IMG/VR virus record: IMGVR_UViG_3300034685_000141
Location: 1 to 29,897 of that record
DNA length: 29,897 nucleotides
Reading direction: 5' to 3' (one strand)
DNA from: a virus
The first letter of the stretch is position 1. Every line of letters starts with the position of its first letter. Of this stretch, positions 4,496-18,742 are shown piece by piece. The position numbers were made by a program, and so were the translations under genes. A model generated the notes under the pieces. That model made no database searches and was not told the DNA's origin. It saw only the letters and a list, made by a program, of their open reading frames with translations.

Positions 4496-6154
4496 TTAGA
4501 TATATACCCCCTCTGCCGACTCAATAAGCTCATTTTCCATATACTCTTCTATAGAGGCTATAAGTTTATTAATATCCGCTTCTTCCCGGATATCACCGGT
4601 AGTCACTTGTAAAGTTGGAGAAAGGGTGATAAAGTTTTGGATACTTTCCTGTTCTGCCATATCCCTCATTAATTTTAGGTCCTCTGAACTCATAGTGATA
4701 CTGTCCTTAATTTTACTTATATCATCCCGCATAGGTAGCCAGCTATCTTGTGCCGTTTTATTCATTTGCTCCAAAATATTAGTCATATCATCTTTCTTTT
4801 TCTCCTGGAATTCCCATTCTTTAATCCTGAAATCACCGATTATATCTTTCATAAAGGGAATCTTGCTAGCCATATCTAAGAGCCAGTTAAGGCCACCAAT
4901 TATTCCGTTTACAAAGTTAGTAAAAGCTTTACGCCCCTGTTCTGTTGTTGTTACCCAGTGGATTAACATGGCAGCTAATGCAGCTACTGCACCGATTACT
5001 AAGCCTATTGGGTTCTGTTGAATTGCTGTCCATAATGCTCTAAAACTAAACTTTGCACGATCTGCAGCTATCTTTGATAAATATATTTCCAATTTATATC
5101 CTGCCATAGCAAATGTTAATAATATTAATAGAGGAGCTAATGGCTTACCTATATATCCCAGCAACATTAAACCAGTTCCAATACCAGCTAGTACAATACC
5201 TAAAGTAGTAGCTATAGTCCCTATAAAATCTAATAGAGGTTGGAAATTACCAGCTGCAAACATTTCATTAATCTTAAATATAATAGGTGCCAGGCTATTT
5301 AAAGCGCCTTGTCCAGAATTAGCAAAGGCTGTAACAATGTTTGATACCAGAGCTTCCGCTTGAGCGGGACCGGACTTTTCATAAAGCTCCAAAGTTTCAC
5401 TTGTAAAACCTTTTGAATTTAAAAGAGCATCAAATTTATTTATAAACTCATCTAGCGTTTTAGCATTTTTTAAATCTTCGACATCAGCTCTGCCCATATT
5501 AAACCTAGATCTAAGGGACATGTAGTCTCCGGACAACGCTTCCTTAAGGGCAAAGCCAGCTCCTTCTAATCCTTGTCCTGGGTCAATTAAAAAAAGTCGT
5601 TTTGCTAAATTATCCAGACTTTTTTCTCCCATAAATAACTTTTCAGGATTTTTAGTAAACTGAGTAAACTTTTGCATATTACTTAACATATCATTAAAAC
5701 CAAACGATGTCCGCATGGCTTGTTGTTCCAGTGCTGTAAATGCAGCCATTGCCTTGTCTTGGTTGCCAAATATACCTTGCAAGGTCAACTGACTTTGCTG
5801 TACTTTTCCCGCTCCCCCTAAAGTAAGCTCTAAGAATTTTTTCCCGGTCTGAAAGGTTAGATAGGTAGCTGCCAAACCTTTCAAAGTACCTAAAAAACCG
5901 GTAGCCTCACCTTTCCCTCTTCTAATAGCATCATTAAGCCGTTGCTGCTCCTCAACCATTTTTTCCAGTTCATAATTAGCGGTTGATATCCTATTTCTAA
6001 TGTCATTAAAGGTGTTACCCATGGAATTTTGTTTTTGTCCGGCAGTTTGTAGCTTTTCTACCGCATTTAATGTCATATCTATGGCTTCTGTAATGTTCAT
6101 TAATGGCCTAGTCATAGAGTCAAAAAGCTTTATTGTACTTGATACCGTTGCCAT
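4496..6154 (-). CDS. Tail tape measure protein
   Basis: A 552-residue protein that sets tail length and helps deliver DNA. The first 80 residues form a charged coiled coil ([18 protein letters not shown]). The middle carries three hydrophobic segments near residues 311-332, 338-354 and 383-400, typical of tape measures. The C-terminus is helical and acidic. At the usual 1.5 angstrom per residue this predicts a short tail of about 80 nm, an inference. The start at 6154 has a perfect AGGAGGTGAG site. It lies downstream of the moron and its terminator, so late transcription must pass that terminator to reach it. Confidence 0.85.
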
Positions 6155-6213: not shown

Positions 6214-6702
6214 TTATCTTTCCGTATTGTATTTTAAAGTATAAAATTTGCTGAATATAAAACTGTGTAGCATTTTTGCTTCTCTTTGGTTACATTTAAA
6301 AATTACATTTTCATTTTTATTTTGTATAACTAACAAATGATCACTTTGGATATCTTTACCCATCCCAGACATGCCACCGACAACTGCACCCAATGGTCCA
6401 AGTAATAAACCACCTATAGCAGCTCTACCAATAACAGATTTATCACTTTGGAATTCACTTATTGTTTTTAAATTAATAGTTTCTATTTCTTCATCTAGAA
6501 CATAATAACATTTACCTTTGATAAATGGCCCTCTTATATGTGATACTAACAATCCTTTTTCATATTTTGCAAATTCAAATACTTCTGCATCTTCTCTCTT
6601 AGGGAAATCATTAAGGCCTTCAATCAATTGCACCGTAGCTGCATACTTCTTTTTTTCCTTACCCAATACCTCTTTAATATCTTTCTTATCAATCTCCAAC
6701 AT
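6214..6702 (-). CDS. Moron: glycine-zipper protein of unknown function
   Basis: A 162-residue protein not recognised as part of tail assembly. Residues about 110-133 (GRAAIGGLLLGPLGAVVGG...) form a glycine-rich hydrophobic segment of the glycine-zipper type. The flanking parts look like a compact alpha/beta domain ending in an amphipathic region. It interrupts the otherwise conserved order chaperone then tape measure, has its own promoter-like sequence upstream and a terminator downstream, and could therefore be expressed in the lysogen. A membrane- or envelope-related role is possible but unproven. Confidence 0.65.
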   Translation of the reverse strand: MLEIDKKDIKEVLGKEKKKYAATVQLIEGLNDFPKREDAEVFEFAKYEKGLLVSHIRGPFIKGKCYYVLDEEIETINLKTISEFQSDKSVIGRAAIGGLLLGPLGAVVGGMSGMGKDIQSDHLLVIQNKNENVIFKCNQREAKMLHSFIFSKFYTLKYNTER

Positions 6703-6770: not shown

Positions 6771-7372
6771 TTACCTCCTTCTTCTTCCTCTTATTCTATT
6801 TTTTATAATTTCTTCTTTTTCTCTTTTTAGATATACTTTAATACTGGCAATAATAAAAGCCTTTTCTTTGCGACTTAAATTAGCAAATACGCTGGGAAGC
6901 ATTTTAAGTTTATGGAGGGCATAGTGGGCAAAATTTGCCTCACTATCTCCCTCCTCTATTAGTTTTTTGCTTCTTCTATCAGTTCATCCATGCTTTTATC
7001 ATAACCGTTTATCTCACTGACAATAGCAAATAACTCAGCATACTCACCGTCTAACATCTTGCCCTTCATAGCCTTTAATAAATTTTCTGCGCCCATTACA
7101 CCCCAGGCTTTTTGTAATTCTTCATTCCTAAAATCAGGATAGACAGTGGTCTCAATGATTAACTTTTCCATATAAGAGTCCTGGTCAGTACTGACCTGCT
7201 TTTGCCCTTTATAGATTGACACCTTCCGGCAGCTCTTTCTTATTTCATCACCCTTAGTAGCACTAATTGGCTTAAATTTCATTTTCTTTTCCTTGCCACC
7301 AAGTTTAATTGACCTTTCTATAACTTCCGCTTCCTCAAAATCCTCTATTAGAAAATCTTGAAATTCGCTCAT
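6771..7372 (-). CDS. Frameshifted long tail-assembly chaperone
   Basis: The long form arises by a -1 frameshift at the end of the XkdN-like gene. The ribosome reads A_AAA_AAC (6962-6968), slips back one base and continues for 63 codons to a TAA at 6771-6773, giving about 200 residues. The extension (LIEEGDSEANFAHYALHKL..., then MLPSVFANLSRKEKAFIIAS) is helical and looks like the second part of other phage tail chaperone pairs of the lambda G/GT and SPP1/PBSX types. No start codon with a ribosome site serves this part alone. In such phages the long form binds the tape measure while the short form coats it. Confidence 0.82.
6914..6968 (-). promoter_or_regulatory. Programmed -1 frameshift signal
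   Basis: The slippery heptamer A AAA AAC lies in the zero frame at 6968-6962, directly before the TAA stop. Seven bases later a long stem-loop spans 6954-6914: GGAGGG pairs with CCCTCC, ATAGTG with CACTAT and GGCAA with TTGCC around an ATT loop, with only small bulges. Heptamer, spacer and structure fit the standard -1 frameshift layout. Confidence 0.85.
6959..7372 (-). CDS. xkdN: Tail assembly chaperone, XkdN-like short form
   Basis: A 137-residue protein placed between tail tube and tape measure, as is XkdN in PBSX. It is mostly helical and acidic, with the typical beginning (IEDFEEAEVIERSIKLGGKEKKMKFKPIS in shortened form), a DSYMEKLIIETTVYPDF segment and VMGAENLLKAMK. It should coat the tape measure during tail assembly and be absent from the virion. 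Its last codons are GCA AAA AAC TAA, which form the frameshift site. The ribosome site is AGGAGGGGG before the ATG at 7372. Confidence 0.85.
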   Translation of the reverse strand: MSEFQDFLIEDFEEAEVIERSIKLGGKEKKMKFKPISATKGDEIRKSCRKVSIYKGQKQVSTDQDSYMEKLIIETTVYPDFRNEELQKAWGVMGAENLLKAMKGKMLDGEYAELFAIVSEINGYDKSMDELIEEAKN

Positions 7373-7383
7373 GTTTCCCCCTC

Positions 7384-7845
7384 CTAGTAACTTAATTCAT
7401 TAAAGCTATCTAAAATATCGACATCTTCAAAGGTAAATGGAATTTCCTCCTCAAGGAATTCTGCATCTGCATCCATTAAAGCCATAATAACTTCATCCAG
7501 GTTTACCCTTTTTAATAGCACGGTTTGGTTTCCAGCGGGGCTAGCCTCATCATCGTTTATTACCTGAACATCAAAGTAAGCATCTATCCCTTTTTTAATG
7601 TAGTCCAACATTATTTGTCTAAACATGCTGGTCACATAATAAATGGTCATAGTACCTGTTCCGCTCCATCCCGTAGCTTTATGTTGGGTGGCCCGAGAAC
7701 CAATTACTCTTCCTTCAGATTTGTTTTTTATCACCTTGGCTTCAATTTTTTTAACATAAAACATTTCGTAAACCCTGCCATTAATAGTCATAAAAGCCCT
7801 AGCCTCTGAACCACTAATAGTATCACTGAGATTGAAATTAACCAC
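7384..7845 (-). CDS. xkdM: Tail tube protein, XkdM-like (DUF2001)
   Basis: A 153-residue protein with the tube signature: ISGSEARAFMTINGRVYEMFYVKKIEAKV, then KSEGRVIGSRATQHKATGWSGTGTMTIYYVTS and a C-terminal EEEIPFTFEDVDILDSF. It polymerises as hexameric rings inside the sheath. It directly follows the sheath gene with no gap, as in PBSX (xkdK-xkdM). Length is normal for the family. Confidence 0.92.
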   Translation of the reverse strand: MVNFNLSDTISGSEARAFMTINGRVYEMFYVKKIEAKVIKNKSEGRVIGSRATQHKATGWSGTGTMTIYYVTSMFRQIMLDYIKKGIDAYFDVQVINDDEASPAGNQTVLLKRVNLDEVIMALMDADAEFLEEEIPFTFEDVDILDSFNELSY

Positions 7846-18244: not shown

Positions 18245-18742
18245 TTACATCAGTGCTTTTTGAAATTCCACTCCAACCCATGTACGCTTTTTTTCTCCTG
18301 ACAAGTCAAATTCCAGAAGAACCTTTTTCTTGCGTCTGTCCAATTTAACTATTTTATTCCTGTATTTTTCTATTGGACCAATAAACTTCAACTTACCCTG
18401 CTCGTTATATTCAACTATACTCTTTTCTTTAAAGTCATTAATAAGAAGAATATACTCCATTTCTTCGTCTGCAATCGGTTGTTTCAAACCACTGCCTAAA
18501 AAATATAATACAAACCAGGTATTTTTAATTAAGTAATATAGCCAATAGTCGTCTTTGGGAATTTTAACAAATACATACCCCGGTATAAGTTTTATAATCC
18601 TTTCTTTCCATTTACCCGCTTTATATTCAAATACTCTTTTTTGGGGGATTACAGCTACTATGTCATGTTTTTCTAGTCTCCCCTTGACCTTTTCTTCTTT
18701 GCCGGCAACAACTTTTATAGCATACCAGAATAATGGCTTCAT
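18245..18742 (-). CDS. NusG/LoaP-like transcription elongation factor
   Basis: A 165-residue NusG paralogue. The NGN domain (about 1-105) shows FWYAIKVVAGKEEKVKGRLEK in order, then the family hallmark IPGYVFVKI at 53-61 and NTWFVLYFLGSG at 74-85. A KOW-like domain follows (about 120-150: IGPIEKYRNKIVKLDRRKKKV). NusG-family proteins bind RNA polymerase and favour elongation; LoaP members act on specific operons through leader RNA and antitermination. The gene stands alone between two terminators, just before the late operon, whose internal terminators it could overcome. It is not a host nusG: no secE or L11 genes lie nearby. The ribosome site AAGG is ordinary. Confidence 0.85.
   Translation of the reverse strand: MKPLFWYAIKVVAGKEEKVKGRLEKHDIVAVIPQKRVFEYKAGKWKERIIKLIPGYVFVKIPKDDYWLYYLIKNTWFVLYFLGSGLKQPIADEEMEYILLINDFKEKSIVEYNEQGKLKFIGPIEKYRNKIVKLDRRKKKVLLEFDLSGEKKRTWVGVEFQKALM

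Follow-up and report, generated by a model that had tools for sequence, protein, structure and literature searches.

We find that a tail assembly chaperone gene of the XkdN type almost certainly carries a programmed -1 ribosomal frameshift, as judged by comparing the window (the whole stretch of viral DNA analysed, 29,897 nucleotides) with its relatives. The shift is considered programmed because relatives keep both the in-frame slippery heptamer and a homologous -1 domain: A_AAA_AAC stands in frame at the end of the zero frame, together with that domain, in 84 of 85 distinct XkdN-family loci. Most ribosomes would read A_AAA_AAC and terminate at the next codon, yielding a short chaperone of 137 residues, whereas a minority would pause while the heptamer occupies the P and A sites, aided by a hairpin that begins 7 nt downstream. 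In the paused complexes tRNA-Lys and tRNA-Asn would re-pair one base back and translation would resume for 63 codons, yielding a long form of 200 residues with an added helical domain. As in the lambda G/GT scheme, many short chaperones would be made for each long one; by analogy with lambda gpG and gpGT, short chaperones would cover the tape measure protein, and the domain added in the long form would bring in the tail tube protein and set off tube polymerisation. The sequences themselves display the signal, its conservation in relatives, and selection acting on the zero-frame as well as the -1 part; from these we infer the frameshifting itself, its rate, the roles of the two products and a chaperone role for the -1 domain. 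The features are collected in Table 1.

Table 1. Features of the chaperone locus and its neighbours, in window coordinates.
Feature	Position	Strand	Evidence
Tape measure protein	4496..6154	-	phrog_1068, 1.2e-64
-1 extension, 63 codons and stop, helical domain (GT-type product, 200 aa)	6771..6962	-	ORF, homology, dN/dS
Hairpin of 17 pairs, 7 nt after heptamer, presumed frameshift stimulator	6914..6954	-	MFE, shuffles, pairing across loci
Zero-frame stop TAA, adjoining heptamer	6959..6961	-	sequence
Zero-frame tail assembly chaperone, XkdN-like (G-type product, 137 aa)	6959..7372	-	PF08890, phrog_389, 3klu profile
Slippery heptamer A_AAA_AAC, zero frame (xxA AAA AAC)	6962..6968	-	kept in 84/85 distinct relatives
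Tail tube protein	7384..7845	-	PF09393, 1.1e-46

By sequence and by gene position, the zero-frame gene is a tail chaperone gene, as the preliminary description had proposed, and of the XkdN type. Its product matches PF08890 (Phage_TAC_5) with an E value of 5.7e-40 and 136.8 bits against a cut-off of 27, covering profile positions 2-135 of 135. It likewise matches phrog_389 (2.4e-39), and YqbN of B. subtilis, whose structure has been solved (3klu), is a profile match at E 1.4e-40. The gene follows those for the sheath and the tube and precedes that for the tape measure protein, the presumed client of the chaperone. An extra gene matching phrog_17658 (6214-6702, minus strand; 1.1e-15), of unknown function, is located between the chaperone and tape measure genes, and the Brevibacillus phages Jimmer2 and Abouo likewise have an unnamed gene there. 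In the phiCDKH02 record (L016:1381-1821) the XkdN chaperone is named 'portal protein', as it is in the hit list for PVJ1 and MissE2, which is apparently an annotation error.

Relatives were taken from named phages, two species genomes and viral contigs, and their zero-frame products are down to about 30% identical to that of the window. The contigs were searched with a peptide pattern that lies some 50 residues ahead of the site, which keeps this sample from being chosen by the heptamer, and most of the 85 distinct loci were found in this way. A pattern derived from the window protein alone returned very few relatives; an alignment-based pattern returned more than 500, of which 80 were used. 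Seventy-five loci, here called diverged, share less than 90% pairwise identity in the region of the site; the loci are related by descent, and statistics pooled over them overstate their independence.

The last codons of the zero-frame gene are GAA GCA AAA AAC TAA, which bears out the earlier reading of a zero-frame heptamer directly before the stop. The heptamer alone is common, with 23 copies on the two strands of the window; beyond chance are its frame, its position next to the stop, the hairpin, and the conservation of these. Immediately before AAA AAC, the diverged loci have GCA (39 loci), GTA (29), ATA (3), ACA (3) or GGA (1). The residue encoded there varies, yet all 75 have A as the third base, against 28% predicted from codon usage; with the amino acids fixed, a locus would carry the heptamer by chance with a probability of about 0.06. 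A stop follows the heptamer directly in 73 of the 75 (TAA 54, TGA 15, TAG 4), and A_AAA_AAC was found at the stop of none of 668 other ORFs of the related loci. That the residue varies while the third base is always A, that the stop adjoins, and that the arrangement is absent from those other ORFs, shows selection of the slippery site at the nucleotide level.

Six A in a row could also lead to transcriptional slippage, and it is then the transcript, not the ribosome, that would yield the fusion. Transcription in bacteria is known to slip on A runs, yet usually needs about nine A or more, whereas in 84 of the 85 distinct loci the run has six A, no more and no fewer, and then C. The codon phase of the run and the spacing of 7 nt to the hairpin also fit ribosomal slippage, and we hold a transcriptional origin of the fusion to be very improbable. 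Transcriptional slippage is among the subjects of a review (PMC5009743).

A step of one base back at the heptamer, as in ribosomal frameshifting, gives 63 open codons before a stop that ends at 6771, and the computed fusion has the 200 residues that had been anticipated. The interval first assigned to the element, 6914-6968, is right for the hairpin, which ends at 6914, and too short for the -1 coding part, which runs on to 6771. Of the 75 diverged loci, 74 can be read for 50 codons without a stop in the -1 frame, none in the zero frame and one in the +1 frame. Median dN/dS in the -1 frame is 0.39, and the ratio is below 1 in 99% of the 264 pairs with unsaturated synonymous change, which indicates purifying selection. 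The preliminary description had named two grounds for abandoning the frameshift, relatives that lack the slippery site and a -1 frame free of purifying selection; the comparison gave the opposite on both. Synonymous differences from close relatives are fewer in the -1 part than in the zero-frame part (for example 0.55 versus 0.84 for Clostridium mobile), as constraint from the RNA stem would predict.

The -1 domain is predicted to be all-helical, in accordance with the helical domain proposed before. AlphaFold2, run on an alignment of the window and a subset of the related loci, gives three helices at a mean pLDDT of 79. A search with this fold returned nothing significant in PDB (best E 3.9) or BFVD (best E 0.056). 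Among 67 members of the -1 domain, no Pfam model and no useful NCBIfam model matched any, and most match short PHROG families without function.

Could the -1 part be a small gene of its own, with its own start and translated by reinitiation, so that no fusion is made? GenBank records omit the domain or annotate a fragment of it, and parts of it appear as separate small ORFs in Jimmer2, Abouo, phiCDKH02 and PBP180. In the window the frame, described earlier as lacking its own start, does have one in-frame ATG at 6902, its codon 21; the length of 63 codons given with that claim is exact. No Shine-Dalgarno sequence is visible before this ATG, however, and in a 15-member alignment the Met of codon 21 is mostly not Met in the relatives. 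The homologous part of the domain begins at the heptamer itself, with the motif LIxEGD, upstream of any start, and a separate gene would leave the conserved heptamer unexplained. In Streptococcus phage EJ-1 (L015:1489-2085), moreover, chaperone and extension form one continuous ORF, owing to one base, just ahead of the heptamer, in which it differs from its relative MismyG (L014). The continuous frame of EJ-1 may be a fusion that occurs in nature or may stem from an error in sequencing; as a single frame, it shows that the zero-frame and -1 parts are co-linear pieces of one protein. Independent initiation seems to us close to negligible.

A spacer of seven bases and a stem of 17 pairs, composed of GGAGGG/CCCTCC, ATAGTG/CACTAT and GGCAA/TTGCC, were found as they had been described. 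In the window the hairpin has an MFE of -26.1 kcal/mol versus -10.2 +/- 2.7 in shuffles (z -5.84), and 0 of 200 shuffles were as good. Locus by locus, the 55 nt that follow the spacer were also folded and compared with synonymous shuffles that keep the same -1 peptide and the same GC content. Over 75 loci the observed mean is -20.4 kcal/mol versus -11.6, with a mean z of -2.9 (window, -5.3), and 76% of the loci show an excess at p<=0.05; a control stretch 63 nt further on gives a mean z of -0.34. A hairpin beyond coding expectation is absent from 11 of the 75 loci, including the Lactobacillus phages KC5a and CR28. Coding alone does not account for the conserved hairpin, which is nonetheless not universal in the XkdN family.

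The same structure is paired in 81.8% of cells among 55 gap-free loci, versus 39-56% when it is slid along the alignment. Covariation by column is modest, with 20 double-changed cells versus 6 expected from shuffles, confined to 3 pairs, in part because the stem changes register between subgroups. Inspected by eye, the alignment reveals GAGGGC/GCCCTC in some loci and GAAGGC/GCCTTC in others, and the stem appears to be maintained through register shifts that column counts miss. The median distance between heptamer and hairpin is 7 nt over the 75 loci. By hairpin energy the window ranks 18th of 75, a good and not an unusual member, so that the initial view of an unusually well formed site is not supported. 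That the stem, stable and GC-rich, is a transcription terminator or other RNA element beside an incidental slippery site is hardly credible, since it is not followed by a T run, is embedded in conserved coding sequence and keeps a fixed spacing to the heptamer, and an Rfam search matched no family. On the evidence given, transcriptional slippage, independent initiation and a terminator were all rejected.

Mechanistically, this is the G/GT-type frameshift already known for phage tail chaperones and widely conserved among tailed phages, and the preliminary description was correct in treating it as an established principle. Here as in lambda G/GT, the gene precedes the tape measure gene, the shift is in the -1 direction, a slippery heptamer lies near the end of the first frame, and a short and an extended product would result. 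Lambda G/GT uses another heptamer. Here, unlike in lambda, A_AAA_AAC abuts the stop and a strong hairpin follows; family searches revealed no sequence likeness to the lambda proteins. In the G/GT class both products are made, at a fixed ratio that is needed for tail assembly, and a downstream stimulatory structure is common, though not universal. Features of the class found at the present locus are an in-phase heptamer, a conserved -1 frame without a conserved start, a position between the tube and tape measure genes, and downstream RNA structure. The lambda frameshift and its counterparts in dsDNA tailed phages are the subject of Xu, Hendrix and Duda (2004), as cited in the review PMC5009743, which also gives the lambda scheme of a short part on the tape measure and an extension that recruits the tube protein. 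For a cluster of HK97-like tail chaperones, frameshifting at 6-7% was determined by experiment (PMC3711429, 2013). It is the same kind of phage frameshift, in a chaperone family that differs from XkdN, and XkdN is not mentioned in the main text of that paper.

What is new here is modest: the same site recurs throughout the XkdN family, and the domain it leads to has no Pfam or NCBIfam model. The window protein resembles the PF08890 family (phrog_389; YqbN, 3klu) in sequence and in its position after the sheath and tube genes, whereas the Pfam and PHROG models of XkdN-like chaperones end with the zero frame and leave the frameshift domain outside. Our confidence is evenly divided on a broader proposal, namely that XkdN (PF08890) phages of Firmicutes with contractile tails share one exact cassette, consisting of A_AAA_AAC, an adjoining zero-frame stop and mostly a hairpin about 7 nt on, which joins the chaperone to a conserved helical domain that lacks a Pfam or NCBIfam model and is usually unannotated or cut into small hypothetical ORFs, and that this family-wide rule may be undescribed. 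In the open literature searched, which did not extend to the 2004 survey by Xu et al., we found no paper stating a frameshift for XkdN. A textbook mechanism is extended to a large and common chaperone family with no principle changed, and across the XkdN family the second half of a protein is missing from annotation. The uniform site also offers a natural set of variants, with and without the hairpin and with one in-frame fusion, for the effect of stop versus hairpin on the product ratio.

The element as a whole (1-29897) is a Mu-like transposable phage, probably of a Firmicute. Its transposase is 40.8% identical to that of Bacillus phage BalMu-1, and it also encodes a MuB-like AAA protein, Mor, and homologues of Mu gp27 and gpF; its tail module is contractile, of the PBSX/XkdN type. 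Near the Mor activator and head genes lies a gene with a NusG N-terminal domain (18245-18742, minus strand; PF02357, 8.9e-16). It has only one weak relative in the phage collection, and may encode a phage elongation or antitermination factor for the late operon.
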